Source: an uncultured Pelagibacteraceae bacterium
Lineage (GTDB): Bacteria; Pseudomonadota; Alphaproteobacteria; Pelagibacterales; Pelagibacteraceae
NCBI GenBank assembly: GCA_902522895.1
Contig: CABYXD010000004.1
Location: 1 to 35,874 of the forward strand
Length of the DNA stretch: 35,874 nt
Direction: 5' to 3'
Position 1 is the first letter of the stretch; the number at the start of each line of letters is the position of its first letter. The position numbers were made by a program, and so were the translations under genes. Positions 1 to 30,814 of the stretch are shown one piece after another. The notes under the pieces were generated by a model. It saw only the letters and a program-made list of their open reading frames with translations, was not told the origin of the DNA and did no database searches.

Positions 1-1
1 T

Positions 2-2488: not shown

Positions 2489-2489
2489 A

Positions 2490-4681: not shown

Positions 4682-4704
4682 TCAATTATAATAAAAACAA
4701 GAAA

Positions 4705-5481: not shown

Positions 5482-5506
5482 TCAGAAGAAAAGAAAATCT
5501 AAAAAT

Positions 5507-7732: not shown

Positions 7733-7742
7733 ATAAATATTT

Positions 7743-8504
7743 GTGTCTTTAGTAACAATTATTATCCCATATAAAAATAATTTAAAATATTTATTTTCCG
7801 CTTTAAGGTCCGTTTTTTTTCAAACTTATAAAAAATTTAAAATTATAATTATTTATGATGACAAAGATACCTCTGATTTATTTCATATAAAAAAATTCAT
7901 TTCTAATAAAATAATAAAACAAAAATTTTTTGTACAAATTATAATGAATAAAAAAAATTTAGGAGCTGGGTTATCAAGAAATATTGGTATTAAATTTAGC
8001 AAATCAAAATTTATTGCTTTTTTAGATAGCGATGATGTTTGGCACAAAAATAAATTAAAATTGCAATTAAGGTTTATGAATAAATATAAGGTTCCAATTT
8101 CCCACACCTCTTATAATGTTATAAATGAATTAGGTAAAAAAACTTCAAAAAGAAAAGCAAAAAAAAAATTATATTTGAAAAATTTACTTAAGTCTTGTGA
8201 TATTGGATTATCTACAGTTATGATTGATTTAAAATTTCTAAAAAAAAATAATTTAAAATTTCCTAGCATTAAAACAAAAGAGGATTATGTGTTGTGGTTA
8301 AAAATTTTACAAAAAATTTCATTTATTAGAGGCATTAACACAAGTTTAACTAATTATAGAAAAAGAAAAAAATCATTATCCTCAAATAAAATGACAAGTA
8401 TTATAAATGGATATAGAGTTTATAAAGATTATATGAATATGGGATATCTTGAATCATTTTATAGATTATTAATATTGTCTCTCAATTCTTTAAAAAAAAA
8501 TTAA
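7743..8504 (+). CDS. Glycosyltransferase family 2
   Basis: GTG start; VTIIIPYKNNLKYLFSALRSVFFQTYKKFKIIIIYDD, NLGAGLSRNIGIKFSKSKFIAFLDSDDVWHKNKL. Confidence 0.9.
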   Translation: MSLVTIIIPYKNNLKYLFSALRSVFFQTYKKFKIIIIYDDKDTSDLFHIKKFISNKIIKQKFFVQIIMNKKNLGAGLSRNIGIKFSKSKFIAFLDSDDVWHKNKLKLQLRFMNKYKVPISHTSYNVINELGKKTSKRKAKKKLYLKNLLKSCDIGLSTVMIDLKFLKKNNLKFPSIKTKEDYVLWLKILQKISFIRGINTSLTNYRKRKKSLSSNKMTSIINGYRVYKDYMNMGYLESFYRLLILSLNSLKKN

Positions 8505-8527
8505 AAAACTTGAAAAATTTAATTTTT

Positions 8528-9853
8528 TTAAGAATGAAATTTAAAATTTTTGTTTGAAAGATAAATTAGTATTGACAAATTAAACCAAAATGGAATGCCA
8601 TAGTTTGTTCCAAAAAAACTACCCGATGGTAGAATTGGAAATATAAAAAAAATATGTAATAAAAGATGTGAAATTAAATATATTTCTTTATTTTTTTTTA
8701 GTGATCTTAAAGAAATATAAATTGGATAAAAGAAAATAAAGATACAATAAACTAATCCAACCAAACCAACTTCAGACAATATTTCAAGATAAATTTGATG
8801 AGGATGAGTTGAAGCTTTAAGAACTGGAGTTTCTACAAGTCCATCAGATGTAACATTATTAACTCCAAATTTTGTATCCTCATATTTAGCTTTTGAACTC
8901 TCTGAATAAAAATTATTTATACCTATACCAAATATAGGGTAGTTTAAAAAAATTTTATATGCTGCTGCATAATGTGGAGCATGTGTAGAAACTTTAAATC
9001 TTTGTATAAAATTTAATTTATATTTCCCATTTTCAACAATAATTAACTCTTCAGTTAAATCATATAAACCCTTTCCTTGTTTAGTGTTTTTGGTCAATTG
9101 ATAAAATGAAAATATCAAAACTAATATAACTGGAGTAAAAAGTATTAATTTTTTTATTTTTAATTTAGTGAAATTTAGAACAAAATATATGAAATAAAAT
9201 ATCATTATTAATAAAACAAATTTTAAAAAGTTAGATCTTTCACCAATAATAAAACTTATGATAATAAGAAAGCATATTAAGATAAAAAAATAATAATGAT
9301 TGGATCTTTTAAATATAAATGTGAGAGTAAATAAAGCAGTAAAACAAAATATATATCCAATAATTAATTCATCATTAGTAAAACTAGCTATTCTGCCTAC
9401 TTTAGAGGATTTATATCCTAAAAGATTATACCCAAATAAATATTCGAACAAAATATCAAAACTTAATATTAGAAGGATAACAACGTAAGTCTTATAAATT
9501 TTAGAAAAAAAATTAGTTTTATTGTTTTTTTCCAAATAGATTATTAATCCAAATAACATTAGAACGAATCTAGAAAATGATAAATATTTAAAAATAGAGC
9601 TTTGTAAAAATGAGTTTTTAAACTCAAAACTTTCAAAAGGAAAAATTAAAATTATAAAACTAAAAAATAAAATTTTAGCTTTGGTATTTATAATATTGAT
9701 ATTTAAAAATCTCTTGTAATTAAATATTGCATATAACGAAAATATTATTGAAAAACAATTTAGTGCAAAAGAGCCCAATATAATTAAAATTGGAAATGAC
9801 AACAATAGTAGCCCTAATATAATGTTAATTTTACTACTAATTATTTGTTTCAT
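8528..9853 (-). CDS. O-antigen ligase / Wzy-like polymerase integral membrane protein
   Basis: Many hydrophobic helices; Wzy_C-like loop IFLNYPIFGIGINNFYSES followed by STHPHQIYLEILSEVGLVGLVYCIFIFFYPI. Confidence 0.85.
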   Translation of the reverse strand: MKQIISSKINIILGLLLLSFPILIILGSFALNCFSIIFSLYAIFNYKRFLNINIINTKAKILFFSFIILIFPFESFEFKNSFLQSSIFKYLSFSRFVLMLFGLIIYLEKNNKTNFFSKIYKTYVVILLILSFDILFEYLFGYNLLGYKSSKVGRIASFTNDELIIGYIFCFTALFTLTFIFKRSNHYYFFILICFLIIISFIIGERSNFLKFVLLIMIFYFIYFVLNFTKLKIKKLILFTPVILVLIFSFYQLTKNTKQGKGLYDLTEELIIVENGKYKLNFIQRFKVSTHAPHYAAAYKIFLNYPIFGIGINNFYSESSKAKYEDTKFGVNNVTSDGLVETPVLKASTHPHQIYLEILSEVGLVGLVYCIFIFFYPIYISLRSLKKNKEIYLISHLLLHIFFIFPILPSGSFFGTNYGIPFWFNLSILIYLSNKNFKFHS

Positions 9854-10833
9854 TTTCTATAATTTAGCCTTGCAGCAAAATATAAGAAAAAAGTCAAAAT
9901 AAAAGTTATTAATGATAATATTTTAGAAAAATTACTTAATAAAAAACCTAAATAAATAATTAACAAGTTAGAAACAAAAAATAAAAAAAGCGTTTTAAAA
10001 TGATTTTTTTTAAATTTAGCTAAAATTTTATGGTGGAGGTGTGTATTATCTGCCGTTAAAATATTTTTTTTTTGTAATGCTCTATTAGTGGATACAAATA
10101 AAAAGTCGAATATCGGGTACCACAATGGCCATATTAAATATACAGGGTGTATTTTAAATCCTCTATAAAGTTCAATTGTCAAAAAACTTATAAAAAAACC
10201 AATGAACAAACTACCTGCATTACCACTAAATATTTTAAATTTTGATTTTGAAGGCAATAAGTTCAATATTAAATTTAAAATTACTGGAATAAGTAGTAAC
10301 TTAATAAGCGAGATGGTTTGAGAGTCTTCAATTAAAAAAATATAATATCCTAAGCAACAAATAAAAAATGTTAATAGTAAACCATCTGATCCATCAATAT
10401 AATTTGTCGCATTTATTAATAAACCTGTAGCAAGAATCAAAAAGGGTATATGAAATTTTCCTAAATTTAAAACTCCAATTTGCTCGTAGTTTCCTAAGTT
10501 TGTTATATTTATGCCATTAAAAATTAAATATGCAGAAGGAGCTATAAGTAAAATGATTTTAGTCGATGGGTTTAAATTAATTACATCATCAATAAGACCA
10601 ACAACGAAAACAAAAAAACCAATTGAAATAATGAATTCAATATTATGATTTAATTCAAAAAAATTAATAATTATTAAATAAAACAAATAAATGATTATTC
10701 CACCTGTATTAAATACTTTTGAAGTATGAACTTTTCTTATGTTGGGTTTATCATAGAGTTCCAATTTTTTTGAAATAAATATAGTAAACAGAAGTAATAT
10801 AAAATATAAAATTGTAAGATTAATTAGTAACAT
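9850..10833 (-). CDS. Undecaprenyl-phosphate sugar-1-phosphate transferase (WecA/MraY family)
   Basis: YDKPNIRKVHTSKVFNTGGIIIY, GLIDDVINLNPSTKI, NATNYIDGSDGLLL, FSGNAGSLFIGFFIS, NTHLHHKIL. Confidence 0.92.
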   Translation of the reverse strand: MLLINLTILYFILLLFTIFISKKLELYDKPNIRKVHTSKVFNTGGIIIYLFYLIIINFFELNHNIEFIISIGFFVFVVGLIDDVINLNPSTKIILLIAPSAYLIFNGINITNLGNYEQIGVLNLGKFHIPFLILATGLLINATNYIDGSDGLLLTFFICCLGYYIFLIEDSQTISLIKLLLIPVILNLILNLLPSKSKFKIFSGNAGSLFIGFFISFLTIELYRGFKIHPVYLIWPLWYPIFDFLFVSTNRALQKKNILTADNTHLHHKILAKFKKNHFKTLFLFFVSNLLIIYLGFLLSNFSKILSLITFILTFFLYFAARLNYRK

Positions 10834-10891
10834 GTTTTTTAAAAATTTTTGTATTACTAATATACAATAAAAGAAAAGGAAATTACAATTA

Positions 10892-12595
10892 ATGCCAGAT
10901 ATTATAATCTTTTTTTTGATCTTTTATATATTGTTAATTTCAGTAGTTGGATATGGCATATTATTTCAAAGATTATGTTTTGGGCATATTGGAAATTCGA
11001 CAGATCAAAACGAGATTTATATAGGATTTTATGGGCTGTTTTTAATAACTATTATCTCTTTAATATCAAGTTTATTTGTTCCTCATAATTTTTTACATAA
11101 TATCATATTACATTCAATTGGGGTTTTATTATTTATATTTTTAAAAATTAGAAATAAAAAAGATTATTCAAAAAGTATCTTTTTGATTTCACTTTTAGTG
11201 CTTTCTGCATTGTTAATATCTAAAACTCACGATGATTTTTCTTATTATCATTTACCATTTACAAAATATTTAACAGAACAAAAAATTATATTTGGTATGG
11301 GGAATCTGGGTCATGGATATAAATTAATTTCTTCCTTATTTTTTTTAAATTCAACTTTTTATTTACCTTTTCTTGAATATTTTACTTTTCATTTCTCTTT
11401 ATTATTTTTTTTAATTTTTTTTAATTATATTTTATTAAGTGAAATTTTTTCTAACAAGTCTAATGAAGTAATTAGGTTTATATGTATTTTTGCATTAGCT
11501 TTTTTTAATTTATCTTTTAATAGAATTGCAGAATATGGCACTGATAAAGCCGGCCAACTACTTATAGTAGTTTTAATCATTAAGATTTTACAACACATTT
11601 GTTATGATAATAATAAGTTTAAACTTAATAGTGTACTAATTTTGTTACCTTTATTAGCTTTTTGCATGAGTTTAAAAACTTATTTTTTACCATATATATT
11701 GCTTGGAGGAACAATAGTATTTTTAGACACAAGGATTAGCAAAAGCATTAAAACAATATGTTATTCTAGATCTTTTCTAATTACATCAATTTCATTAACA
11801 ATTTACTTTTTTCATCATTTTATCTCGACTGGATGTTTTATTTCACCATTAAGTATAACATGTCTTGGAGATAATTTAGAATGGGCAAGTAGCAGTATAG
11901 AATATAAAAATTTAGCTATTTGGCTTGAGCAGTGGGCAAAAGCTGGCGCAGGACCAGGTTTCAGAGTTGAAAATCCTTTAGACTATATAAAAAATTTTAA
12001 TTGGATTTCTCGTTGGACAGAAAAATATTTTGTTGGAAAGTTTTTAGATCAGTTGGTTGTATTAATGTCAGTTTTTTTAGTGATATTTTTATTTCTGAAA
12101 AAATTTAAATTAACGACTGGGTCATTAACTATAAATAAAAAAATTGTATTTTTTTATACAATTATCCTAGTTATCTTTTTTATTTGGTTTACCAAACATC
12201 CACAACTAAGGTATGGCGGGTATTCAATTGTTTTTTTAACAATGTCTATTCCTATTGCAATACTATTTCAGAAAGCAGTAAATAAAAAAACTTTCAAAAA
12301 AAACTTTAAATATTTAGTTTTATTAATAGTGATTATTTTCAATTTTAAAAATATTAATAGAATTAATAAAGAATTCCAACGAACCGACTTGTACAAATTT
12401 GATGATTTCCCTTATTATGCTATTCCTGAAAAAAAATTTATTGCCGAAAAAACTTCATCAGGTCTTACATTCTATAGATCTCCAGGACATTGTTGGAACA
12501 CCCCAACTCCTTGCACCGGTAGCTTAAAAAGTAAAATTGGAGTTAAAAAAATTAATGGATATTATTTTTTAATAAAAAACCCAATATCTGAATAA
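10892..12595 (+). CDS. Large multi-pass membrane protein of unknown function (possible GT-C-like or LIC_10190-like family)
   Basis: 567 aa with many hydrophobic segments; conserved-looking luminal segment ISKTHDDFSYYHLPFTKYLTEQKIIFGMGNLGHGYKLISSLFFL; located in the polysaccharide cluster. Confidence 0.6.
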   Translation: MPDIIIFFLIFYILLISVVGYGILFQRLCFGHIGNSTDQNEIYIGFYGLFLITIISLISSLFVPHNFLHNIILHSIGVLLFIFLKIRNKKDYSKSIFLISLLVLSALLISKTHDDFSYYHLPFTKYLTEQKIIFGMGNLGHGYKLISSLFFLNSTFYLPFLEYFTFHFSLLFFLIFFNYILLSEIFSNKSNEVIRFICIFALAFFNLSFNRIAEYGTDKAGQLLIVVLIIKILQHICYDNNKFKLNSVLILLPLLAFCMSLKTYFLPYILLGGTIVFLDTRISKSIKTICYSRSFLITSISLTIYFFHHFISTGCFISPLSITCLGDNLEWASSSIEYKNLAIWLEQWAKAGAGPGFRVENPLDYIKNFNWISRWTEKYFVGKFLDQLVVLMSVFLVIFLFLKKFKLTTGSLTINKKIVFFYTIILVIFFIWFTKHPQLRYGGYSIVFLTMSIPIAILFQKAVNKKTFKKNFKYLVLLIVIIFNFKNINRINKEFQRTDLYKFDDFPYYAIPEKKFIAEKTSSGLTFYRSPGHCWNTPTPCTGSLKSKIGVKKINGYYFLIKNPISE

Positions 12596-12596
12596 A

Positions 12597-13313
12597 ATGC
12601 TATATTCTAAGATAATCATAATTATTTTAAATTTTCTAGATTATTTTCAGCAAAGAAAAATTATTAATTTAATTAATAATAAATTTTTAAAGCCAATAAT
12701 TGTATTTGATGTAGGTGCACATTATGGAGAAACAATAAAATTATTTAATAAGAAATTAAAACTAAATAAAATATATTCATTTGAAGCGAGTCCACAAAAT
12801 TACAAAATACTCGAGAAAAATGTTGCCAAGTATAATTCAAAAAAAATACAAATTTATAATTATGGGGCAGGAGAAAAAATATCTGAAAATTATATTAATC
12901 AGACATTAGAATCATCTTCGTCAACAATTAATAAACTTAATGAAAGCTCTAAATATTTTAAAAAAAAGTTAAAGATTTTAAATATCAAAAATAAAGAATC
13001 TTTTCAGCTTAAAATTCCAATTAAAATAATCACTTTAGATTATTTTATAGAAAAGAATAAAATTGAACATATTGATTTATTAAAAATAGATACAGAAGGT
13101 TATGAATTTAATGTTTTAAAGGGATTAGAAAAACATAATGATAAAGTTAAACTAGTGTATTTTGAACATCATTATGATGATATGATAATTAAAAACTATA
13201 AATTTACTGACATCCATTTTTTGTTAACAAGTTATGGTTTTGTAAAAATCAAAAAAAGTAAGATGATATTTAGAAAATCTTTTGAATATGTATATGAAAA
13301 TCAAAAAATATAA
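12597..13313 (+). CDS. FkbM family methyltransferase
   Basis: VFDVGAHYGETIKLF, IYSFEASPQNYKILEKNV, ITLDYFIEKNKIEHIDLLKIDTEGYEFNVLKGLE. Confidence 0.9.
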   Translation: MLYSKIIIIILNFLDYFQQRKIINLINNKFLKPIIVFDVGAHYGETIKLFNKKLKLNKIYSFEASPQNYKILEKNVAKYNSKKIQIYNYGAGEKISENYINQTLESSSSTINKLNESSKYFKKKLKILNIKNKESFQLKIPIKIITLDYFIEKNKIEHIDLLKIDTEGYEFNVLKGLEKHNDKVKLVYFEHHYDDMIIKNYKFTDIHFLLTSYGFVKIKKSKMIFRKSFEYVYENQKI

Positions 13314-13343
13314 TATTGTGTCTATGAATCATTTATTTTAAGT

Positions 13344-14768
13344 TTATTTTTTTAATCGTAATTTGTAATAAGATGTAAGAATAATAAAAAGCATTCTTAA
13401 TGCATTAGATATTACTGAGGTCATTTTTGTGCTTTCTTCCTTTCTTTCATAGTATGTGACTGGGACCTCAGTTATTTTTAAATTATTTTTATAAGCACCT
13501 ATCAAAAGATCAAAATCTCCCCACAAATCTTTCATTCCCCATTTTGAAATATCTTTTTTTATTTTAACCCAATCTTTTTTATAAAATATTTTTGTTCCAC
13601 ATAATGTATCTGTTATTTTTTTTCTAAAAAGCAAGCTAAATAAGCTAGCAAAAAAATTATTTCCAATAAAATTAAATAATTTCATCGCACCATCTTTTTG
13701 TGGGTAAATCATTCTTGTGCAATTTATAAAATCTGCGTTTGTATTTTTTAATATATCTATTGAAAATTCAACATCCTTAAAGCTCACAGTTAGGTCTGCA
13801 TCATATATTACGACTATATCACCACTCGAATTATCTATACCTTTATAAACATTTTCTGATTTGCAGATTCCAGGACCATCATATTTAATAATTTTATTAT
13901 TATTTAATTTTTTAGATAATTTATCAATTTCATCGCTGGTATTATCTTTAGAATTATCATCACCAAATAAATATTCATTAGACTGGTTACTTTCAATTAT
14001 ATTTTTTTCGAATGCCTTGATGTTATTTTCCTCATTTTTACACGGAATTATGAATGAAACTTTTTTATTATTATTTTCAATAAAATTTTGATTTATTTTT
14101 TTTAAAATTGTTACATTTGAAAGACAAAATATATTGAATATAGGTAATCTAAAAAGCCTATTAATAAAATTAGTAAAAAATGGAATATAAATTGGTAATG
14201 CTATAAGTTTTTCATTTCTAATTACTTCCAAGTTACAACTCGTGTATAAATTGTTTAAGTAAGACGAAGGCAAGAAATTATTTTTGGTAGGAGAAAAATT
14301 AAAAAATAATTTTAATAATTTTATAAAAATCATCCAAATCAAATTTTTTGATAAAATAATTATTTTTGCATCATCTTTCATTATTTTAGATAAATTTAAT
14401 AAATTTGAAGTTGGGTTTGATTGATGTTCTATATCAGCTATTAAAATAGTGTCACATTCAGACAATTCATCATGATTAATTTCATTTATATAATGAGTAT
14501 TCGAATTATATTTTATTTCATATTTTTCGTCTATTTCTTTAATAAAAATTTTGTTTGATTTGATATTTTTACTTATCAAGGAGTTGCCAGCACAAAAAAT
14601 GAAAATACCTTTAGAGCTATCTATACAATTATTAATAAAATTTGAAATTTCATTAAATAAAAACTTTTTTTTTTGTATAAATTTGAGTCTTTTTTCAAAA
14701 TTTGATTTAAAAAAAGATGTACTAGAATTTAAATAGTAATCACTTTTTAAGAGTTTTGAAATATTCAT
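13344..14768 (-). CDS. Fusion protein: N-terminal methyltransferase-like domain plus C-terminal GT2 (dolichol-phosphate-mannose-synthase-like) domain
   Basis: C-terminal half: VSFIIPCKNEENNIKAFEKNI, DDNSKDNTSDEI, GDIVVIYDADLTVS, DTLCGTKIFYKKDW, VPVTYYERKEESTKM. N-terminal about 220 aa: GIFIFCAGNSLISKNIKSNK, then SECDTILIADIEHQSNPTSNLLNLSKIMKDDAKIII. Confidence 0.8.
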   Translation of the reverse strand: MNISKLLKSDYYLNSSTSFFKSNFEKRLKFIQKKKFLFNEISNFINNCIDSSKGIFIFCAGNSLISKNIKSNKIFIKEIDEKYEIKYNSNTHYINEINHDELSECDTILIADIEHQSNPTSNLLNLSKIMKDDAKIIILSKNLIWMIFIKLLKLFFNFSPTKNNFLPSSYLNNLYTSCNLEVIRNEKLIALPIYIPFFTNFINRLFRLPIFNIFCLSNVTILKKINQNFIENNNKKVSFIIPCKNEENNIKAFEKNIIESNQSNEYLFGDDNSKDNTSDEIDKLSKKLNNNKIIKYDGPGICKSENVYKGIDNSSGDIVVIYDADLTVSFKDVEFSIDILKNTNADFINCTRMIYPQKDGAMKLFNFIGNNFFASLFSLLFRKKITDTLCGTKIFYKKDWVKIKKDISKWGMKDLWGDFDLLIGAYKNNLKITEVPVTYYERKEESTKMTSVISNALRMLFIILTSYYKLRLKK

Positions 14769-14808
14769 ATTTTGTTTAACTATTTATTTTTTTTAATTTA
14801 TATTTTTT

Positions 14809-14832
14809 AAGTATCATATATATTTGATACTT
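14809..14832. promoter_or_regulatory. Perfect inverted repeat (8-bp arms, 8-nt spacer) in divergent intergenic region; possible operator or hairpin
   Basis: aagtatca-tatatatt-tgatactt; arms are exact reverse complements; lies between the minus-strand GT fusion and the plus-strand epimerase. Confidence 0.4.
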
Positions 14833-14862
14833 TTAATAATAGTATTATAAACTAATTCAAAA

Positions 14863-15738
14863 ATGAAAAAATATATAGTTGTAACTGGAGGTGCTGGCTT
14901 TATAGGGTCAAATTTAATCTTTAAATTGCTTAAATATACTAACTTTAAAATTTTAAGTATTGATAATTATTCAACTGGTAAAAGGAAAAATCATATTTTA
15001 AATAAAAGAGTAAAATATATTAGATCAGACACAAAAAAAATTTCAAAAGTTTTAAATGTTTTTAAAAAAAAAATTTTAGTAATTTTCCATTTTGGAGAAT
15101 TTGCTAGAATTTATCAAAGTTTTTTGAAAATGAATGAGTGTATTGCCTCTAATACTATTGGGACAAACGAAGTATTAAATTTTTGTCTCAAAAATAGAAT
15201 TAAATTAATTTATTCAGCTACTTCAGCAACTATTGGCAATAAAGGTAATGATAAAAATTTATCACCTTATGCTTTTACCAAAGCAAAAAATATTGAAATG
15301 TTAGAAAATTTAAAAAAATGGTTTAATTTTAAATATGAAGTAATCTTTTTTTACAATGTATATGGTCCTAATCAAATTAAATCTGGTAGTATGGCGACCG
15401 TTATAGGAATTTTTGAGGAACAATATAAAAAAAAGAAACCTTTAACAGTTGTCAAACCAGGAACTCAATCAAGAAGATTTACTCATGTTTATGATACTGT
15501 CGATGCATGTTTTTATGCCTATAAAAAAGATAAATGCAGGTATTATAGTATTTCAAATAAAAAAAGTTATTCAATAATTGAGGTAGCAAAAATGTTTAAT
15601 TCTAAAATTAAATATTTAGCTTCAAGACCTGGTGAACGATATGCATCAGCTTTAACAAATATGAATTTGTCTAATAAAGTCTATAAATTGTTTGGTAAAA
15701 TTCAATTGAAAGATTATTTGAGGAAGATAATTAAATAG
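14863..15738 (+). CDS. NAD-dependent epimerase/dehydratase (UDP-glucose 4-epimerase-like SDR)
   Basis: VVTGGAGFIGSNLI Rossmann motif, SPYAFTKAKN (YxxxK), FFYNVYGPNQIKSG, SRRFTHVYDTVDACFYA. Confidence 0.9.
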   Translation: MKKYIVVTGGAGFIGSNLIFKLLKYTNFKILSIDNYSTGKRKNHILNKRVKYIRSDTKKISKVLNVFKKKILVIFHFGEFARIYQSFLKMNECIASNTIGTNEVLNFCLKNRIKLIYSATSATIGNKGNDKNLSPYAFTKAKNIEMLENLKKWFNFKYEVIFFYNVYGPNQIKSGSMATVIGIFEEQYKKKKPLTVVKPGTQSRRFTHVYDTVDACFYAYKKDKCRYYSISNKKSYSIIEVAKMFNSKIKYLASRPGERYASALTNMNLSNKVYKLFGKIQLKDYLRKIIK

Positions 15739-17264: not shown

Positions 17265-17573
17265 ATGGAAATAGATCCCTTTATATTCAGATTAAGTATA
17301 TTTATTCTTTCAATATTTATTGGATATTATGTTGTTTGGAGTGTAACGCCTTCTTTACACACTCCTTTAATGTCAGTGACTAATGCAATTTCTTCAGTTA
17401 TAATTGTTGGAGCTATCATTGCTGCGTTAGCTGGTAATTCTGATAGTGTTTTTAATACTTCAAGTATTTTTGGATTTTTAGCAATATCTCTTGCAGCAAT
17501 AAACATCTTTGGGGGTTTTTTAGTAACTCAAAGAATGCTTGCCATGTATAAAAAAAAGAAAAAGGGTAAATGA
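17265..17573 (+). CDS. pntAB: NAD(P) transhydrogenase subunit alpha part 2 (PntAB)
   Basis: VVWSVTPSLHTPLMSVTNAISSVIIVGAI and FGGFLVTQRMLAMYKKKKK; follows pntAA. Confidence 0.95.
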   Translation: MEIDPFIFRLSIFILSIFIGYYVVWSVTPSLHTPLMSVTNAISSVIIVGAIIAALAGNSDSVFNTSSIFGFLAISLAAINIFGGFLVTQRMLAMYKKKKKGK

Positions 17574-18970
17574 TGATTTCTGTAAATTTATCAGCAATTT
17601 TTTATTTAGTTTCTGGTGTATTATTTATTTTAGCATTAAGAGGTTTGTCATCTCCAGAAACATCTAGACAAGGTAATTTTTTTGGAATTATGGGTATGAT
17701 AATTGCAATAACAGTTACATTTTTATCTATAGGAAATTTTTCAATTGGGTTTATATATGTTTTAATTTTTTTATTAATTGGTGGTTTAATTGGAGCTTTT
17801 ATAGCTTACAAAATACCAATGACAGCTATGCCTGAACTAGTAGCTGGTTTTCATAGTTTAGTTGGTCTAGCAGCAGTTTTTGTAGCAATATCAGCTTTCC
17901 TAAATCCAGAAGCATTTAACCTTGGAACATCGGGAAATATCAAGCTTGGAAGTTTAATTGAAATGTCAATTGGTGCTGCTGTAGGTGCGATAACATTTTC
18001 TGGATCAATAATTGCTTTTTTAAAATTACAAGGAATTATGTCTGGATCACCAATTACATTTAAAGGACAGCATCCACTTAATGCTCTAATATTAATAGCA
18101 ATAGTAATTTTAACTTACTTGCTTTGTTCAACTCAGTCTTCAAATTTATTTTGGATTTTATTAGTCACCTCTTTTTTAATTGGTTTTCTATTAATAATTC
18201 CAATTGGTGGAGCAGATATGCCGGTAGTAATTTCAATGCTTAATTCATATTCAGGTTGGGCAGCTGCGGGAATTGGATTTACTTTAGAAAATACTGCTTT
18301 AATTATTACAGGAGCCTTGGTTGGTTCATCAGGAGCAATTTTATCTTATATAATGTGTAAGGGCATGAACCGTTCTTTCTTTAACGTTATATTAGGTGGA
18401 TTTGGAGCAACTGAGCAATCAGCGAATTTGTCAAGTAAAGAACAAAGACCTGTCAAAAGCGGTAATGCCGAAGATGCAGCTTTCTTGATGAAGAATGCAT
18501 CATCAGTAATAATCGTACCGGGCTATGGAATGGCAGTTGCACAAGCACAGCATGCTCTTAGAGAAATGGTAGATACACTAAAAAAAAATGATATTAAGGT
18601 TTCTTATGCAATCCATCCAGTAGCAGGTAGAATGCCAGGCCACATGAATGTTTTATTGGCTGAAGCTAATGTTCCTTATGATGAAGTTTTTGAATTAGAG
18701 GAAATTAATAATGATTTTGCTAATGCAGATGTTGCATTTGTAATTGGCGCCAATGATGTAACAAACCCAGTTGCAAAAACTGACCCACAAAGCCCAATTT
18801 ATGGTATGCCCGTCCTAGATGTTGAGAAGTGTAAATCAGTTTTATTTGTAAAGAGAAGCCTTTCACCAGGTTATGCAGGGATTGACAATGATTTATTTTA
18901 TAAGGAAAATACCTTAATGCTTTTTGCTGATGCAAAAAAAATGACAGAAGATATTACGAAAAATATTTAA
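17570..18970 (+). CDS. pntB: NAD(P) transhydrogenase subunit beta (PntB)
   Basis: LRGLSSPETSRQGN, GGADMPVVISMLNSYSGWAAAGIGF, IVPGYGMAVAQAQHALREM, YAIHPVAGRMPGHMNVLLAEANVPYDEV, GANDVTNPVAKTDPQSPIYGMPVLDV. Confidence 0.97.
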   Translation: MMISVNLSAIFYLVSGVLFILALRGLSSPETSRQGNFFGIMGMIIAITVTFLSIGNFSIGFIYVLIFLLIGGLIGAFIAYKIPMTAMPELVAGFHSLVGLAAVFVAISAFLNPEAFNLGTSGNIKLGSLIEMSIGAAVGAITFSGSIIAFLKLQGIMSGSPITFKGQHPLNALILIAIVILTYLLCSTQSSNLFWILLVTSFLIGFLLIIPIGGADMPVVISMLNSYSGWAAAGIGFTLENTALIITGALVGSSGAILSYIMCKGMNRSFFNVILGGFGATEQSANLSSKEQRPVKSGNAEDAAFLMKNASSVIIVPGYGMAVAQAQHALREMVDTLKKNDIKVSYAIHPVAGRMPGHMNVLLAEANVPYDEVFELEEINNDFANADVAFVIGANDVTNPVAKTDPQSPIYGMPVLDVEKCKSVLFVKRSLSPGYAGIDNDLFYKENTLMLFADAKKMTEDITKNI

Positions 18971-18997: not shown

Positions 18998-20107
18998 ATG
19001 AAATATAATTTTATTTTCTACTATCCGTCTATTGAAAGTGGCGGATTAGAAAAAAACTTATTTTTTTTAATTAATTCGTTAGCAGAAAAAAAATATCAAG
19101 TTAAGCTAATCACTTATGCAGATAATATAAAAAATAGTAAAATAAGAAAAAAATTTTTTTTTCACAAAAATATCGACTTAATAAGTTCAGATATAATTAA
19201 AGGAATTAACAATAAATATTTAAAATACATTTTTTGTTCCATTAGATTATTTTTTTTTATGTTAAGTGAAAAAGGAACTATCGTATCATTTCAAGGAAAT
19301 ATTTTACCAATAATAGTTGCAAAAATTACAAGTAATAAAATAATAATTAGATGTAATACGGCTCCATCAAAGTATATAAATAATTTTTTTAAAAAATATT
19401 TTTTTAAATTTTTTTATTCCTTAAGCGATATAATTTTAGTTACATCAGAAGATTTTAAAAAAGAAATTAAAAAATATTTTAATTTAGTCAGTAAAGTACA
19501 TAAACAAAGCCTAGATCTAGATGATATTAAAAAAAAATCAAAAATTAATTTCAATTTTACTTTTTTTAAAAATTTTAAAGGTATTAAAATTATAAATGTA
19601 GGAAGATTGACTCATCAAAAAAATCAAATCATATTATTAAAAGCATTTTTGGAATTAATTAAATATCGTAAAGCAAAACTCTTGCTAATTGGAAGTGGAG
19701 GGGATGAAAAAATTTTAAAAAAATTTATTAAAGAGAATAAAATTCAAAATTTAGTTAAAATTGTTAACTTTACTAACAATCCTTTTAAATATATCTCACT
19801 TTGTGATATTAAGGTTTTAAGCTCTAGATATGAGGGTAATCCAAACATTTTGCTTGAAACAGCCTGTTTAAAAAAATTAATAATCTCTACCAATTGTAAA
19901 GTTGGTCCAAGAGAAATATTGCAGTCAGGCAAAGGAGGCATTTTATTCAAAGTCGGGGATTATAATAAGTTACTCTCAATTTTAAAGAATATAGATATCA
20001 ATTCAAAAAATATTAAAAGAAAAATAAATATTAGTTATCAATATGTAAAAAAAAACTTTAAAAAGGATATTTCGCTAAGTTTTATTAATCTAATAAAAAA
20101 ATTATAA
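18998..20107 (+). CDS. Glycosyltransferase family 4 (paralogous to 6638-7732)
   Basis: YYPSIESGGLEKNLFFLINSL, IINVGRLTHQKNQIILLKAF, LLLIGSGGDEKILKKFI, LSSRYEGNPNILLETACLKKLIISTNCKVGPREIL. Confidence 0.9.
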   Translation: MKYNFIFYYPSIESGGLEKNLFFLINSLAEKKYQVKLITYADNIKNSKIRKKFFFHKNIDLISSDIIKGINNKYLKYIFCSIRLFFFMLSEKGTIVSFQGNILPIIVAKITSNKIIIRCNTAPSKYINNFFKKYFFKFFYSLSDIILVTSEDFKKEIKKYFNLVSKVHKQSLDLDDIKKKSKINFNFTFFKNFKGIKIINVGRLTHQKNQIILLKAFLELIKYRKAKLLLIGSGGDEKILKKFIKENKIQNLVKIVNFTNNPFKYISLCDIKVLSSRYEGNPNILLETACLKKLIISTNCKVGPREILQSGKGGILFKVGDYNKLLSILKNIDINSKNIKRKINISYQYVKKNFKKDISLSFINLIKKL

Positions 20108-21150
20108 TGAAAATAGCTATTATTGGTTCAGGTTTTTTTGGTGCTACACTGGGTCTTTATTTGTCAAAAAAAAATAAAGTAACTATTTATGAAAAAGAAA
20201 AAAATATTTTAAATGGAGCATCCTCGGCAAATCAGTTTCGTTTTCATTTAGGATACCATTATCCTAGATCAAAAAAAACAATATCTGAGATTAATAAATC
20301 AAAAAAATTATTCACTTCTTTTAATGGACCTAAGGTATTTCAAAAAACTATAAATTACTATTTAATTGCTAAAGAAAGTAAAACTAATTTTACTAAATAC
20401 AAATTATTTTTAAAAAAAAATAGACTTTATAACAAAAGTATAAATATTCTGAATTTAAGTAAAAAAATTGATAAAGTAATTTTGTCTAACGAAAAAATAT
20501 TAAATTATTTTGAATATAAAAGATCACTATTACAAAAAATTCAAAAATCTAAATTAAAGCTTAAATTAAATACTGAGTTTAAAAAAGATGATTTAAATAA
20601 CTATGATAAAGTTATAATAGCAACTTATTCAAACAATAATTTAGTTTTAAAAAAACTTGGTATAAAAAAAATACAAAAATATAAATTTGAATTAGTTGAA
20701 AAAATTGTTATCAAATTACCTAAAAGATTTTCTAACAAAAGTTATGTTGTTGTTGACGGTAAGTTTGTTTGTGTAGATCCCTATTTAGGTACAAACTATC
20801 ATTTGTTAAGTGATGTAAAATTATCTAAATTAGAAATCAAATCTGGAAATTTTCCAATTTTTAAAGATAAAAAGAAAAGATATCTTAATAAAGGCATGAT
20901 TAAAAATATTAAAGTTTCAAGATTTAATCAATTTATAAAAAGAAGTTCAATTTATCTTCCATTTTTAAAAGAGGCAAAATATGTGGGATCTTTTTTCGTT
21001 GTCAGAACAATTCAAAAAAATAAAGAGAAAACTGATGAGAGAGTAACATCTATTGTTAATCATTCAAAAAAAATTACAAGTATTCTTTCAGGTAAATGGA
21101 ATAATTGTGTTTATTTAGCTAAAAATTTTATAATAAAAAAAGATTTATGA
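20107..21150 (+). CDS. FAD-dependent oxidoreductase (DAO-like Rossmann fold), putative sugar-modifying enzyme
   Basis: MKIAIIGSGFFGATLGLYLSKKNKVTIYEKEKNILNGASSANQFRFHLGYHYPRS: GxGxxG dinucleotide motif and acidic end of beta2. Confidence 0.75.
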   Translation: MKIAIIGSGFFGATLGLYLSKKNKVTIYEKEKNILNGASSANQFRFHLGYHYPRSKKTISEINKSKKLFTSFNGPKVFQKTINYYLIAKESKTNFTKYKLFLKKNRLYNKSINILNLSKKIDKVILSNEKILNYFEYKRSLLQKIQKSKLKLKLNTEFKKDDLNNYDKVIIATYSNNNLVLKKLGIKKIQKYKFELVEKIVIKLPKRFSNKSYVVVDGKFVCVDPYLGTNYHLLSDVKLSKLEIKSGNFPIFKDKKKRYLNKGMIKNIKVSRFNQFIKRSSIYLPFLKEAKYVGSFFVVRTIQKNKEKTDERVTSIVNHSKKITSILSGKWNNCVYLAKNFIIKKDL

Positions 21151-21890
21151 AATTAAATGTAGGTTTAATTGGAAAAGGAAATTGGGGAAAAATTATAGAA
21201 AAAAAATTAAATGCTCTATCAAATTTGAAATTTGTCTGTGGTAAAAAAAAAAGTTATTTAAAATTAATTAAATCCTCAAATATCCATTGGGTATTCATTG
21301 TCACACCTAATAAGACACATTATAAATTAGTAAAAATGTGTTTAGATAATAAAGTAAATGTTTTTTGTGAAAAACCTCTTTGCTTAACAACAATTCAAGC
21401 CAAAAAATTAATTAAAATTGCAAAAAAAAATAAAGTTAAATTATTTATTAGTGATCTTTACAATTTTTATACAAATAAATTTAAAAAAAATGAATTGATA
21501 ACAGAAGTTTATAGATCTAAGTTTGTTAACGGGTTAGATAATGAATTTTTTTTTAGACTTATGTATCACGATATCAGTATATTATATAAACATTTAAACA
21601 AATTGATAAGTTTTACATGCCAAATTTCCCAAAATAATTTTGAAAAAAAATTTCAATTAGTTATAGATTCATCGAATAAAAAAAGGTTTACTTTTTTTTA
21701 TGATTTAAAATCAAAAAAAAAGAAACATTTAATAAATGATTTACAAATTAAATCAAAGAAAGATATTTTAAAAGAAATGATAAACAATGTTTTGAAAAAA
21801 CGAGTTAATTATTTTCAAAATAACCAAAAAGCAATATTTATCATAAAGTTTATAAATGAAATAAAAAAAAAGGTTAAATATGCCAACTAA
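21147..21890 (+). CDS. Gfo/Idh/MocA-family oxidoreductase (short)
   Basis: VGLIGKGNWGKIIEKKLN, WVFIVTPNKTHYKLVKMCLDNKVNVFCEKPLCLT (TPN..H....C...K.VFCEKP). Confidence 0.85.
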   Translation: MKLNVGLIGKGNWGKIIEKKLNALSNLKFVCGKKKSYLKLIKSSNIHWVFIVTPNKTHYKLVKMCLDNKVNVFCEKPLCLTTIQAKKLIKIAKKNKVKLFISDLYNFYTNKFKKNELITEVYRSKFVNGLDNEFFFRLMYHDISILYKHLNKLISFTCQISQNNFEKKFQLVIDSSNKKRFTFFYDLKSKKKKHLINDLQIKSKKDILKEMINNVLKKRVNYFQNNQKAIFIIKFINEIKKKVKYAN

Positions 21891-22578
21891 AATTTATTGT
21901 GATAGTGCTGATATAAAAGTTATTAAGAAATATAATAAAAAAAAAATTGTAAAAGGCTTTACAACTAATCCAAGTTTAATGCGAAAAGCTGGCGCAAGAG
22001 ACTATCGAGCTTATTCTAAAAAAATAATTAAAATTTGTAAAAATAAACCTATTTCGTTTGAGGTTTTTGCTGATGATAAAAAATCTATGATTAATCAAGG
22101 TATTAAAATAAATACTTGGGGGAAAAACGTTTATGTAAAAGTACCGGTCATTAATTCAAAAAATAAATTTTCTGGAGCAGTAATTAAAGCATTAAACAGT
22201 AAAAATATTAAATTAAATATTACTGCAGTTTATACAGCTCAACAAACAAGAAAGATTTTAAAAGTCATCAATAAAAAAACCAAAGTGATTATTTCAATAT
22301 TTGCGGGTAGGGCTGGGGATACCGGAAAAGATCCAGTGCCAGAATTTTTAAAGAGCTTAAAATTATCAAAAAAATTTAAAAATGTTGAAATTTTGTGGGC
22401 AAGTGTAAGAGAACCATATAATTATTTACAAGCTAAACAACTAGGCTGTCATATAGTAACTGTTCCACCCAATTTAATTGAGAAGATTGAAAAATTTGGG
22501 AAATCCTTTAACGAACTTACAATTGAAACTGTAAATGCTTTTCTTATTGATAGTAAAAAATCAAAATTTAATATTTAG
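21880..22578 (+). CDS. Transaldolase / fructose-6-phosphate aldolase (TalC/FSA)-like protein
   Basis: IYCDSADIKVIKKY, KGFTTNPSLMRKAG, NVYVKVPVIN (Schiff-base Lys context), LNITAVYTAQQ, ISIFAGRAGDTGKDP, ILWASVREPYNYLQAKQLGCHIVTVPP. Confidence 0.88.
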   Translation: MPTKIYCDSADIKVIKKYNKKKIVKGFTTNPSLMRKAGARDYRAYSKKIIKICKNKPISFEVFADDKKSMINQGIKINTWGKNVYVKVPVINSKNKFSGAVIKALNSKNIKLNITAVYTAQQTRKILKVINKKTKVIISIFAGRAGDTGKDPVPEFLKSLKLSKKFKNVEILWASVREPYNYLQAKQLGCHIVTVPPNLIEKIEKFGKSFNELTIETVNAFLIDSKKSKFNI

Positions 22579-22584
22579 TTTGAT

Positions 22585-22661
<77 letters not shown>

Positions 22662-25079: not shown

Positions 25080-25690
25080 TTTAATTTTTCAATCGCTTTA
25101 ACTGGTTTTAGTTTTTTATTATTCCAAATGTAGCCTGAGATAGCTAAAAAGTTTGCTTTATTCAATAGTAGTTTTTGATAATTATTAAAATTAATACCAC
25201 CAATAGCAACAATTGGAGTTTTTGTAATCTTTCTTGCTTTTTTAAGCAAATTAATTGAAGCCTTATATTTTACCCTTTTTGTTCTTGAAATATTGAAAGC
25301 TCCAAAAGCTAAATAATCAGCTTTATTTTTTATAGCAGCTTTTGCTAATTTTATTGAGTTATGACAGGTAATTCCTATTATTTTATTTCCAATTAATTTT
25401 CTAGCTTCTAAGATATTCATGTCTTTTTGACCTAAATGACAACCATCAGCATTTAATTTTTTTGTTAGATAAACATCATCATTTATTAAAAATTTAACAT
25501 TAAACTTTTTACATATCTTTTTAATTTTTTTTCCAATTATTAATTTTTTTTTGAAACTTTCTTTTTTTTGTCTTAGTTGAAAAAAACTAACTTTTTTTTG
25601 TTTAAGAACTTTATTTAAATCACTATAAAAAGATTTATTTATTTTTAATGGTGAAATGAGATATATAAATTTTTTTCTATTAATTCTCAA
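25076..25690 (-). CDS. Thiamine-phosphate synthase family protein (ThiE/TenI-like)
   Basis: VSFFQLRQKKESFKKKL, FLINDDVYLTKKLNADGCHLGQKDMNILEARKLIGNKIIGITCHN, IVAIGGINFNNYQKLL. Confidence 0.8.
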   Translation of the reverse strand: MRINRKKFIYLISPLKINKSFYSDLNKVLKQKKVSFFQLRQKKESFKKKLIIGKKIKKICKKFNVKFLINDDVYLTKKLNADGCHLGQKDMNILEARKLIGNKIIGITCHNSIKLAKAAIKNKADYLAFGAFNISRTKRVKYKASINLLKKARKITKTPIVAIGGINFNNYQKLLLNKANFLAISGYIWNNKKLKPVKAIEKLK

Positions 25691-26687
25691 GATCTTCAGA
25701 CCATTTTCCTTGAGCTGCTAGTGTGTTCATTTTAGCTCGGTGGTTAAAAATCTTTTGAGTGCCCTCAATATTTTTTATATCTTTTGACCAAAATTTTAAG
25801 GCACTTTGTTGAAGGGCTCGTCCATAAGAATAACTCATTATAAAATTAGTATTATTATACTTATTTATTAAATTTAAATTTTCAGTTGCCTCTATTTCCG
25901 ATTGGCCACCAGATAAAAAAGCAATTCCTGGTATCTCTGAGGGCACTGAATTTTTTAAACATTCCAAAGTTAATTTTGCTACCTCTTCATTTGAAATTTT
26001 ATCTTTAGACTTATTGCCAGCCAAGATCATATTGGGTTTGAGTATAATTCCTTTCAAATCAACTTTATGTAAATAAAGTTCATCAAAACATTTTTTGATT
26101 ACTTCTGAGGTTTTTTCATAGCAATCTTTTGATGAATGTTCACCATCCATCAAAACTTCTGGTTCAACTATTGGAACCATATTACATTCTTGAACTAATG
26201 CAGAATATCTTGCTAATGCATGAGCGTTAGCTTGTATTGAAAGTTTACTTGGAAAATCTTTAGATATACTATAAACGCCTCTCCATTTTGTAAATTTTGC
26301 ACCAAGCTTGTAATATTCTTGTAATCTTTCTCTTAATCCATCTAAGCCCTCAGTAATTTTTTCATCTGGTGAGCCTGCTAGAACTTTTGCACCCGTATCA
26401 ACTTTTATACCTGGAGCACAACCCTTATTTGAAATTAACTCTGGGATCTTATTTTTTTTTGATGAATTTTGTTTTATTGTTTCATCATATAAAATTACAC
26501 CTCCTATACAATCAGACATGCTCGATGCACTAAATAGAGTTTCTCTAAATAATAATCTATTTTCTGGGGTTGATGAAACATTTACACCATCTAATCTTTT
26601 GGTCATTGTTCCAGTACTTTCATCAGCAGCCAAAATTCCTTTGCCTTTTTCTAAAATTTTAAGTGCAATGTTATTTAACTCTGACAT
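25680..26687 (-). CDS. fba: Class I fructose-bisphosphate aldolase
   Basis: KGILAADESTGTMTKRLDGVNVSSTPENRLLFRETLF, GGVILYDETIKQ, TKWRGVYSI, VPIVEPEVLMDGEH, GIILKPNMILAG, GIAFLSGGQSEIEAT. Confidence 0.95.
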   Translation of the reverse strand: MSELNNIALKILEKGKGILAADESTGTMTKRLDGVNVSSTPENRLLFRETLFSASSMSDCIGGVILYDETIKQNSSKKNKIPELISNKGCAPGIKVDTGAKVLAGSPDEKITEGLDGLRERLQEYYKLGAKFTKWRGVYSISKDFPSKLSIQANAHALARYSALVQECNMVPIVEPEVLMDGEHSSKDCYEKTSEVIKKCFDELYLHKVDLKGIILKPNMILAGNKSKDKISNEEVAKLTLECLKNSVPSEIPGIAFLSGGQSEIEATENLNLINKYNNTNFIMSYSYGRALQQSALKFWSKDIKNIEGTQKIFNHRAKMNTLAAQGKWSEDLEN

Positions 26688-26688
26688 A

Positions 26689-27867
26689 TTATTTTAGAGC
26701 TTTTATACCAGGAAGTTCTTTACCTTCAAGATATTCCAAAAATGCACCACCAGCAGTTGAAACAAAATTGAAATCTTTAAAAGCATCAATTTTGTTTATT
26801 AAAGCTATTGTATCTCCACCTCCCACAACAGAAAAAATTGATTTGTTTTTATTTTTTTTAATAATTGCTTTTGCAATTTTGTAACTACCATTTGCAAAAT
26901 TTGGATTCTCAAAATAGCCTGCTGGACCATTCCATAAAACCGTTTCACTATTTTCTATAATGTCTTTAATTTTATTGATTGTTTTGGGTCCAATATCTAA
27001 GATTAAATCATCATCTTTTATGTTATTTATTTCTTTGACTTTTGACTTATCATCCATGTTTTTTCCAACCAAAACATCCTCTGGATAGGTAATTTTACAA
27101 GAGTAATTTTTTGAAGTTTTGAAAATTTCATTAATTATCATTTCACAATTTTCTTCTCTAATTGATTTGCCTATTTTGTTTCCTTTATAATTAATAATAT
27201 TATTTGCCATTGCTCCCACAATTATAATGTTATCAAATTTAGGTATTAAATTTTTAATTATCCCAATTTTTGATGAAATTTTTGACCCTCCAATAATACA
27301 TGTAATTGGTTTTTTAATTTCAGTTGTAACTTTTTTTAAAGCATTTATTTCTGTTTCTAATTGTAATCCAGCAAAAGAAGGTAAAAATTCTGTGATTTTA
27401 CACACGGATGCGTGAGCTCTATGAGAACAAGAAAATGCATCATTAACAAACAAATCAGCAAGTCCTGCTAAATGTTTTGCAAAAGTAGTATCATTTTTTT
27501 CTTCTTCTTCATAAAATCTAATATTTTCTAAAAAAACTATTTGATGATTAGGGTCTTTTAGTAAATTTTCCTTTTTTAAATTAAAAATATTATCATTAAT
27601 TATTTTAATTTTTTTGTTAATTTTTTTTTCTAAAATTTCACAAATTGGTTTAAGAGATAAATTTTTATTTATTTTTCCTTTTGGACGTCCTACATGTGAA
27701 ATTACTATTATTCGAGAATTTTTGTCCAGCAAAAATTTAATTATTGGTAGAATTTTATTTATTCTTGTTTGATCTATAATTACATCATTCTTCAAAGGAA
27801 CATTCAAATCTAATCTTAATAAAACTTTTTTTTGATTAAGATTTCCATGATCTTTAATATTATTCAT
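26689..27867 (-). CDS. pgk: Phosphoglycerate kinase
   Basis: KKVLLRLDLNVPLKN, SHVGRPKGKIN, FLENIRFYEEEEKND, DLFVNDAFSCSHRAHAS, ITCIIGGSKISSKIG, LWNGPAGYFE, SVVGGGDTIA. Confidence 0.96.
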   Translation of the reverse strand: MNNIKDHGNLNQKKVLLRLDLNVPLKNDVIIDQTRINKILPIIKFLLDKNSRIIVISHVGRPKGKINKNLSLKPICEILEKKINKKIKIINDNIFNLKKENLLKDPNHQIVFLENIRFYEEEEKNDTTFAKHLAGLADLFVNDAFSCSHRAHASVCKITEFLPSFAGLQLETEINALKKVTTEIKKPITCIIGGSKISSKIGIIKNLIPKFDNIIIVGAMANNIINYKGNKIGKSIREENCEMIINEIFKTSKNYSCKITYPEDVLVGKNMDDKSKVKEINNIKDDDLILDIGPKTINKIKDIIENSETVLWNGPAGYFENPNFANGSYKIAKAIIKKNKNKSIFSVVGGGDTIALINKIDAFKDFNFVSTAGGAFLEYLEGKELPGIKALK

Positions 27868-28874
27868 TAAGAAATTTTGTGAAGGTACTCTGCAATGTCA
27901 CACATTCTATTTGAAAAACCCCATTCATTATCATACCAGGCTGAAATTTTGCCCATATTTTTACCTACTACATTTGTTAAACTAGCATCAATAATTGATG
28001 AAGCGGGATTATGATTAAAATCTACAGAGACAAGTTTATCTTTTGTTACCTCAAGAATCTTTTTTTTATTTTTTTTACTAAAGTTTTCAAATGCTAAATT
28101 AATTTTCTCAATACTTAAATCCTTTTTTGTACAAAAAACCAATTCTATCAATGAAACATTTGGTGTTGGTACTCTCATTGCTATGCCTTCTAATTTTCCT
28201 TTAAGAGAAGGTATAATTTCACCAATCGCTTTTGAAGCACCTGTTGAGGTTGGAACAATAGATTGGCTGGCAGATCTAGCTCTTCTCGGATCTTTGTGAG
28301 AATTATCTAAAATTCTTTGATCACTTGTAAAAGCATGAATTGTTGTCATAAAACCTTTTTCAATTTCAAAATTTTCATTTAAAACATGAGCTACAGGTAC
28401 AAGACAATTTGTTGTACATGATGCAGCAGAAATAATGTTATCATCTTTTTTTAATTCAGACTGATTTACTCCAAAAACAATTGTTTTATCAGCATTTTTG
28501 CATGGAGCCGAAACAATTACTTTTTTTGCACCGTTATTTAAATGAGTTAATAATTTATCTTTAGAATTAAACTTACCTGTACATTCAAAAACATAATCAA
28601 CATCATACTTTTTCCATTTAATATTTTTTAAATCTTGCTCTTGACCGAAAGAAATTTTTTTTTTGTTGATAATTAGATGATTTTTATCAAAACCTATTTT
28701 AGCATTAAATTTTCCATGAATTGAATCGTATTTTATAAGGCCTGAACAAGCTTCAGAACTGGTTTTATTATTTATATGTTTAATTTCTATATTTTTATAA
28801 TTATTTTCAATTATAGAGCGAACAATCATTCTTCCAATTCTACCCATTCCATTAATTCCAACTTTTATCTTCAT
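27867..28874 (-). CDS. gap: Glyceraldehyde-3-phosphate dehydrogenase
   Basis: [114 protein letters not shown]. Confidence 0.97.
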
Positions 28875-30814
28875 AATTTTTCTTTGATCTTTTTAATTAT
28901 ACTTTTCGAATCTAATTCAAAGTGATCGTATATTTCTTTATATGGAGCACTTTTTCCAAAATTATTAATTCCAAAATTTAATCCATTAATGCCTGTATAT
29001 TTTTTCCAATAATCTGTTTCAGAGGCCTCTATAGACACAACAAGTTTAGTTTCACCCAATATTTTATTTTTATAGCCTTCACTTTGTTGATCAAATAATT
29101 CATGACAAGGCATTGATATTATTTTGGAATAAATACCATCTGTGGCTAATTTATGTCCAATATCAATTGCTAAACTAGTTTCAGATCCAGTTGCTATAAT
29201 TGATACAGCTATTTTGTTTCCAGTTCTTAAAATCTCGTAACCACCCACAGATGACTCATTTTTAGAAGAATTTTTTACTCTAATAGGATTAATTCCTTGT
29301 CTTGTTAAAGCTATTACGCTTGGAGTATTTTTATTTTCAAGAGCTAATTGCCAACATTCAAAAGTTTCTATCATGTCGGACGGTCTAAAGACATTTAAAT
29401 TTGGGATGGATCTTAAACTTGTCAATTGTTCTATTGGTTGGTGAGTTGGCCCATCTTCACCTAGCCCAATAGAGTCATGTGTAAATACATATATAACTCT
29501 TTGTTTCATCATTGCCGCCAATCTAATCGATGGTTTACAATAATCACTAAATATTAAAAAAGTGCCTCCGTAAGGAATTAAATTACTGTGAAGAGCGATA
29601 CCGTTCATTATTCCACACATCGCATGTTCTCTCACTCCATAATGAAGATAGTTTCCTGAAAAATTACCAGGTTTTATTTCTTTATGATCTTTAGTTTTTG
29701 TATTATTTGAGCCAGCTAAATCAGCTGAACCACCAATCAGATTTGGTAATTTGGCAACAATACTTAAAAACATTTCTGATGCCTTTCTTGTAGCGAGTGG
29801 TTTTGAATTTTTTATAAAATCATTTTTTGTTTTTTCTATTAAATTATTTAATGAGTTTAGATTTTTATAATTATTAAAAATTTCATTATATTTATTTGTA
29901 TTTTTTTTTACTTTTTGTTGAGCTTTTTCTCCGATATGTCTCCATTCACTTAATAATTCATTTGGAATTTTAAAAGGTTCGTAATTCCATTTTAATTTTT
30001 TTCTTACAAGTACTATTTCATCTTCACCTAAAGGACTTCCATGAGACGATGCTTTACCACTTTTATTTGGTGATCCATAACCAATAGTTGTTTTGCAAGA
30101 AATGGCTATTGGTTTTTTTGAGTTTTGAGCTTTTTTTAGAGCCTTAAATATTTCTTTATAATTATGACCATTGATTTTTATATAATCCCAACCATAACTT
30201 TTAAATCTCTTCTCGTAGTCATCAGAAACTGTTAAGTTAGTAGGTCCATCGATAGATATGGAATTATTATCAAAAAGTAATATTAAATTTTTAAGTTTAA
30301 GATGACCCGCTAAACTTAAAGCTTCGTGACTTATCCCTTCCATTAAACACCCATCACTGGCCAACACATAAGTTTTATGACTAATTTTATTTTTTCCAAA
30401 TTTTTTTTTTAAAATCTCTTCTGATATTGCGAAACCAACTGCATTTGATATTCCTTGGCCTAAAGGACCAGTGGTAGTCTCGATTCCAGTATTTGGATGA
30501 TATTCTGGATGGCCTGCACAGATAGAATCTAGCTGTCTAAAATTTTTTATATCATTTAATGAAACACTTTTATAACCTGTTAGATACAGAAGAGAATAAA
30601 GCAGCATGGATCCATGACCTGCAGAAAGAACAAATCTATCTCTATTTATCCAACTTGGATTCTTTGGATTAAAATTTAAAAAATCTTTAAAAAGAACAGT
30701 TAATACGTCAGCCATTCCCATTGGCATTCCAGGATGACCTGAATTTGCTTTTTGAACAGCATCAATTGACAAAAATCTAATGCAATTGGCCAATTCTTTA
30801 TAAAGTTTATTCAA
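28871..30814 (-). CDS. tkt: Transketolase
   Basis: [107 protein letters not shown]. Confidence 0.97.

Follow-up and report, generated by a model that had tools for sequence, protein, structure and literature searches.

The three genes that lie between pntB and the transaldolase gene tal in an uncultured SAR11 bacterium probably form a small, exchangeable surface-glycan cassette, a reading to which we assign a probability of about 60%. They encode a GT4-family glycosyltransferase (GT4), a FAD-dependent oxidoreductase (FAD) and a short Gfo/Idh/MocA oxidoreductase (Gfo). FAD and Gfo would act as a two-step redox unit, GT4 would transfer the product, and tal would be a bystander. The window, the whole 35,874-nt stretch of DNA that was analysed, is one of the contigs of a source genome (G000) of 557 kb that is 53% complete. 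SAR11 bacteria rank with the most abundant organisms on Earth; their surface-glycan chemistry, a likely phage receptor, is little known.

The insert between pntB and tal

The left flank of the insertion site is pntB (17570-18970, + strand; Pfam PNTB, 657.6 bits), which encodes the NAD(P) transhydrogenase beta subunit. Its stop codon is followed after 27 nt by the start of GT4 (18998-20107), and then by FAD (20107-21150), Gfo (21147-21890) and tal (21880-22578), with an 11-nt overlap between Gfo and tal. The ORF coordinates verified the original prediction as to the positions and overlaps of the four genes, all of which are on the + strand. Its family assignments (GT4, FAD oxidoreductase, Gfo/Idh/MocA and TalC/FSA-like aldolase) were verified by Pfam, all four products scoring above the curated cut-offs of Glycos_transf_1, DAO, GFO_IDH_MocA and TAL_FSA. 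The GT4 protein scored 79.7 bits to Glycos_transf_1 (cut-off 26.4) and carries the EX7E motif EGNPNILLE at residue 279. C1 opposite A72 in the acceptor stem is a hallmark of bacterial initiator tRNAs, and C1 faces A72 in the tRNA-Met (CAT) that ARAGORN detected on the - strand at 22585-22661; both the 27-nt gap and the initiator type of this tRNA, as originally described, were thus borne out. A polysaccharide island of the O-chain type (1-15738), containing glycosyltransferases, Wzy_C, a WecA-like gene, a FkbM methyltransferase and an epimerase, is located on the opposite side of pntAB.

The G+C contents of GT4 (20.3%), FAD (20.6%) and Gfo (19.2%) are like that of the polysaccharide island (21.9% over 1-14800) and unlike those of pntB (33%) and tal (26.5%), and the three genes can therefore be read as an insert. 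Among SAR11 single-cell genomes, AG-422-C13 (L072) contains a complete copy in the arrangement pntB-GT4-FAD-Gfo-tal, with 51-65% identity to the window proteins; since the order is the same in this genome, the gene layout of the window is not a matter of chance. In AH-324-K11 (L073) the contig ends with pntB-GT4-FAD, and AG-325-K07 (L079) has pntB-GT4-FAD-tal with a frameshifted FAD and no Gfo. The GT4 proteins at this place in the three genomes are 60-67% identical to that of the window, and their FAD proteins form one clade with that of the window (support 0.995). Judging from the sequences, we identify GT4, FAD and Gfo as a mobile insert between pntB and tal. The carriers do not group in the pntB tree, where 4 changes are needed among them; a single ancestral insertion is thus unsupported, and the history appears to fit either cassette exchange between strains or repeated loss. 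The same gap holds other inserts elsewhere, labelled by eye as methyltransferase-like (L065), 415-aa membrane-protein-like (L066) and acyltransferase-like (L277), and RIS_SAG_27 (L074) has FAD-Gfo-radical SAM directly after tal instead. A role for the insert in anti-phage defence was rejected, as PADLOC gave no match to its three proteins.

The gene on the right flank, tal, was found in 52 of 53 near-complete genomes, normally in single copy, in a search of 147 family genomes. The pntB-tal junction was compared among 49 genomes whose tal has 61% identity or more; pntB is followed by tal after 5-17 nt, with nothing between, in 44 of these. The neighbourhood of tal includes the core carbon genes fba, pgk, gap and tkt (25680-30814, - strand; Pfam for fba, pgk and tkt), whose order is conserved in relatives, and the core stretch to its right has a G+C content of 27.7%. 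The TAL_FSA domain scored 148.2 bits against a Pfam cut-off of 27. Glu and Phe distinguish transaldolases from fructose-6-phosphate aldolases, in which these residues are Gln and Tyr. The protein resembles the small transaldolases in its full-length match to TIGR02134 (transald_staph) and in E60 (SFEVF), the Schiff-base lysine K87 and F139 (IFAGR), which align with the transaldolase of T. acidophilum (3s0c/3s1u). Its TIGR02134 score of 265.9 bits is below the equivalog cut-off of 281.95, marking it as a divergent relative. By synteny, copy number, composition and residues, 21880-22578 is identified as a core SAR11 gene for a predicted ordinary transaldolase and as a bystander to the insert.

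These observations bear on the original prediction of one self-contained four-gene pathway, with a TalC-like enzyme to alter the carbon chain, two oxidoreductases for modification of its product and a glycosyltransferase for the transfer. The tight co-directional overlaps, including that of Gfo with tal, speak for such a unit, as do tal homologues close to FAD at eight CPR/DPANN loci (L107, L109, L112, L116, L118, L121, L127 and L129); however, these homologues come with GDP-heptose-type genes that are absent from the window. Moreover, pntB runs directly into tal without the cassette in the 44 relatives, FAD-Gfo lacks tal in most SAR11 loci, tal differs from the insert in composition and has transaldolase-type residues, and no GmhA-type isomerase was found in the 53% complete G000. 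We consider the four-gene pathway highly improbable, and its aldolase step is rejected on the synteny, copy number, composition and active-site residues of tal, which is read as an ordinary transaldolase near transketolase, an outcome that the prediction itself had named as refuting it. A misleading lead is thereby removed, the aldolase belonging to core metabolism. In the pntB-tRNA interval, which the prediction proposed to compare across SAR11, L072, L073 and L079 carry the cassette in whole or in part at the corresponding site, and 44 of 49 relatives lack it. The idea of the insert as a decaying remnant of the island without function draws on its low G+C content and on L079 with its frameshifted FAD and missing Gfo. 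We regard it as scarcely credible: the three ORFs of the window are intact and keep their cofactor motifs and the EX7E motif of the glycosyltransferase, and the divergence of the intact set in L072 is consistent with long maintenance.

The flavin enzyme and its short Gfo partner

The FAD protein scored 35.1 bits to Pfam DAO (cut-off 27.9). Its AF2 model (pLDDT 93.7) matched glycine oxidase (Foldseek E 7e-18), GlpD, sarcosine oxidase and L-2-hydroxyglutarate dehydrogenase folds, with a sequence identity of 10-15% and TM-scores by query length of 0.6-0.73. With Pfam DAO above its cut-off and a GR2-type fold, 20107-21150 is a predicted DAO/GR2 flavoprotein. Enzymes of the DAO fold often have amine or hydroxy-acid substrates rather than sugars. 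Invariant residues among 69 relatives include R45, H47, G49, H51, Y52, P53, R54, E129, D217, R312 and K330. When the family profile was compared with solved chains, the N-terminal dinucleotide-binding region was the only part matched, among the matches listed. The Gfo protein has an N-terminal Rossmann domain (GFO_IDH_MocA, 61.8 bits; cut-off 24) with GKGNWG as its GxGxxG motif and EKP at residue 75, and is a putative NAD(P) partner of the flavin enzyme. At 247 aa it is shorter than usual for the Gfo/Idh/MocA family (>300 aa); only its N-terminal domain was matched, without a full-length C-terminal domain. A viral Gfo-FAD fusion was modelled with a pLDDT of 84.7, and the fold matches to biliverdin reductase A, GnnA (UDP-GlcNAc 3-dehydrogenase), WlbA and GenD2 are those of the Gfo half of this fusion.

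Loci with relatives of the FAD gene were gathered with an alignment of five relatives, giving at least 80 from genomes and at least 80 from IMG/VR contigs, whose label "viral" is that of IMG/VR; a viral-contig scan with the single window FAD protein gave no match. Conserved peptides such as HYPRS were used to choose the loci, and proportions hold only for the 154 loci with a scorable FAD gene. Within this set, Gfo is fused into the FAD polypeptide in 48, adjacent in 41 (89/154 fused or adjacent) and two genes away in 4; at distances of 3-8 genes it occurs 7 times in about 975 slots. Most of the same-strand adjacent pairs (n=34) overlap by at least 4 nt. Gfo precedes FAD in the fusions of CPR bacteria and viral contigs, and FAD precedes Gfo in that of one Pacearchaeota. 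In 13 loci FAD adjoins a short-chain dehydrogenase (SDR), mostly of 195-250 aa, and Gfo is missing from all of these; the same kind of SDR stands beside FAD in convergent orientation in the SAR11 genome G146. Because SDR replaces Gfo beside the same flavin enzyme, the latter seems to rely on a partner that uses NAD(P). Among the 106 unfused FAD loci, 61 have no Gfo in the available stretch, 13 of these having SDR, and the flavin enzyme may therefore also act alone or with other partners. In G026, Gfo is about 14 kb from FAD. The neighbours of FAD loci are mostly glycosyltransferases and sugar-nucleotide genes. Taken as sequence evidence, the pairing argues for FAD and short Gfo as a genuine conserved module in SAR11, CPR bacteria, archaea and viral contigs. 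The co-occurrence expected by the original prediction holds for the FAD-Gfo pair and, in most SAR11 loci, not for tal.

We propose that one of the two active sites would oxidise a sugar, probably an activated or lipid-linked one, at one of its positions, and that the other would reduce the resulting keto or imino compound. One of the sites would work with flavin and the other with NAD(P)(H), yielding an epimerised or otherwise modified sugar, which the adjacent GT4 would move onto a cell-surface glycan. The fused FAD/Gfo forms suggest that an unstable keto or imino sugar is handed over. The gene arrangement, the insertion, the pairing and fusion of the two enzymes, their folds and their cofactor motifs are observed; that both act on a common substrate, which redox step comes first, which sugar is modified and that GT4 transfers it is what we infer. 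The synthesis and transfer of an unusual sugar, as originally envisaged, would survive in this form, with FAD/Gfo as a conserved pair in glycan settings and GT4 beside it in same-site copies, minus the carbon-chain change by the aldolase. No description of the FAD/Gfo combination was found in a literature search of open-access papers. The prediction of an undescribed pathway may apply to this pair, having failed for the four genes with the aldolase. A broader proposal, which we put forward tentatively as somewhat less probable than not, is that the HxGxHYPRS flavin enzyme and short Gfo (or SDR) constitute an undescribed two-cofactor system that would remodel a surface sugar by successive flavin and NAD(P) steps, handing over an unstable intermediate; it would be spread over CPR bacteria, archaea and viral contigs as well as SAR11, whose strains would exchange it as a cassette altering the phage-facing surface. 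The naturally fused pair of viral contigs and CPR genomes would be a compact, expressible target with which to read part of SAR11 glycan chemistry.

As for the substrate, gene neighbours point two ways, to GDP-heptose-type genes and to a DesII-like radical SAM gene. FAD-Gfo might modify a heptose, either nucleotide-linked (GDP- or ADP-heptose) or as its phosphate, for which the core transaldolase would supply sedoheptulose 7-phosphate. Genes of the GDP-heptose type (SIS isomerase, HAD phosphatase, GHMP kinase and nucleotidyltransferase) occur at CPR/DPANN loci; nine CPR/DPANN-type loci have two or more of SIS, HAD and GHMP close to FAD, and TAL is present as well in seven of these, while SIS and HAD genes are near FAD in G026 and G146. 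We nevertheless consider this unlikely, as most SAR11 FAD-Gfo loci, the window included, have no heptose genes nearby, no GmhA-type isomerase turned up in G000 (53% complete), and other loci pair with the DesII-like gene. The latter (325-336 bits to TIGR04426, cut-off 450) adjoins FAD/Gfo in L074, L075, L078 and viral contigs and is close to FAD in G146, which would suit a DesII-like pathway to a deoxysugar or amino sugar, where a radical SAM lyase produces a keto-deoxysugar that Gfo reduces and FAD oxidises further. Such a gene is absent from the window, was not found in G140, G026 or the 53% complete G000, and is present in just 11 of the 154 loci, and a pathway of this kind seems quite unlikely for the pair. 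The surface-glycan cassette, with tal as a bystander, is the reading we prefer.

Comparison with known systems

The FAD family shares its fold and GxGxxG dinucleotide site with DAO/GR2 flavoproteins such as ThiO glycine oxidase, GlpD, sarcosine oxidase and L-2-hydroxyglutarate dehydrogenase, from which it differs in its low identity and in its own signature, HxGxHYPRS. Similarly, the Rossmann domain with GxGxxG and EKP, and the fold of the Gfo half of the viral fusion, are common to GnnA, WlbA/WbpB, GenD2 and biliverdin reductase A. Unlike these enzymes, the short Gfo proteins (about 220-266 aa) have a shortened C-terminal domain and, compared with GnnA-type enzymes, look like obligate partners of a flavin enzyme, to which they are often fused.

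Pelagimyophages carry cassettes of glycosyltransferases and radical SAM in their host-recognition regions, according to the part of the published account drawn on here (PMC7029224). Glycosyltransferases and radical SAM genes also surround the Gfo-FAD fusions of the viral contigs, and a link between these contigs and the pelagimyophage cassettes would be fitting, although that part of the account describes no flavin/Gfo pair and SAR11 is only a putative host of the viral contigs. The window FAD protein had no match among cultured phage records, where the fusion had one weak partial match and no close relative; the flanking sequence of two viral contigs likewise gave no match.

The O-chain flexible genomic island of Pelagibacter, a hypervariable region, has pntB as its conserved border (PMC4033161). 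The insert resembles this island in its glycan genes, island-like composition, adjacency to pntB and variability among strains. It differs in position: the described island occupies the variable side of pntB, whereas the insert sits beyond that border, between pntB and core tal. Given that pntB is the published border, the pntB-tal gap is a satellite insertion site, placed on the core flank of the O-chain island.

Transaldolase genes and their surroundings

In several SAR11 genomes, the sole transaldolase gene lies in a heptose-type SIS-HAD-tal cassette and shares 40–51% identity with the transaldolase of the window. Such cassettes were found at L264:5594-7493, L266:5760-7613, L268:6660-8468 and L064:5859-7685 of the sampled loci, and no second TAL_FSA gene besides the cassette copy was found in the closed genome G063. 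The cassette gene looks like a substitute for the core transaldolase in these genomes. In genome G123 (listed completeness 97%), a gene that appeared acyltransferase-like by eye lies between pntB and a broken transaldolase remnant (L277:6402-9010), and a TAL_FSA match was not found in genome G109, whose listed completeness is also 97%. Since an extra 232-aa gene, methyltransferase-like by eye, is located between tal and trcR in genome G140 (L069:6013-6711), the right side of tal also accepts inserts.

Possible alternative partners of the flavin oxidoreductase

A short-chain dehydrogenase adjoins the FAD oxidoreductase gene in the position of Gfo at L128, L130, L135, L142, L143, L169 and L177, as well as at L229–L231, L233, L234 and L236, and Gfo was absent from every one of these loci. 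In a separate FAD subgroup (L134, L138, L140, L144–L151 and L237), Gfo is replaced by a sugar phosphate isomerase/epimerase, xylose-isomerase-like by eye, and an NAD epimerase-like gene is often also present.

Gfo-FAD fusions and giant-virus proteins

At the CPR loci L107, L116, L125 and L127, a recurrent gene of 505–574 aa adjoins the Gfo-FAD fusions; its L125 copy contains B12-binding and radical SAM domains. When compared with BFVD, the model of the window FAD protein gave a good fold match to giant-virus proteins of approximately 670–680 aa (Marseillevirus LCMAC201 and Fadolivirus), which may be additional fusions.
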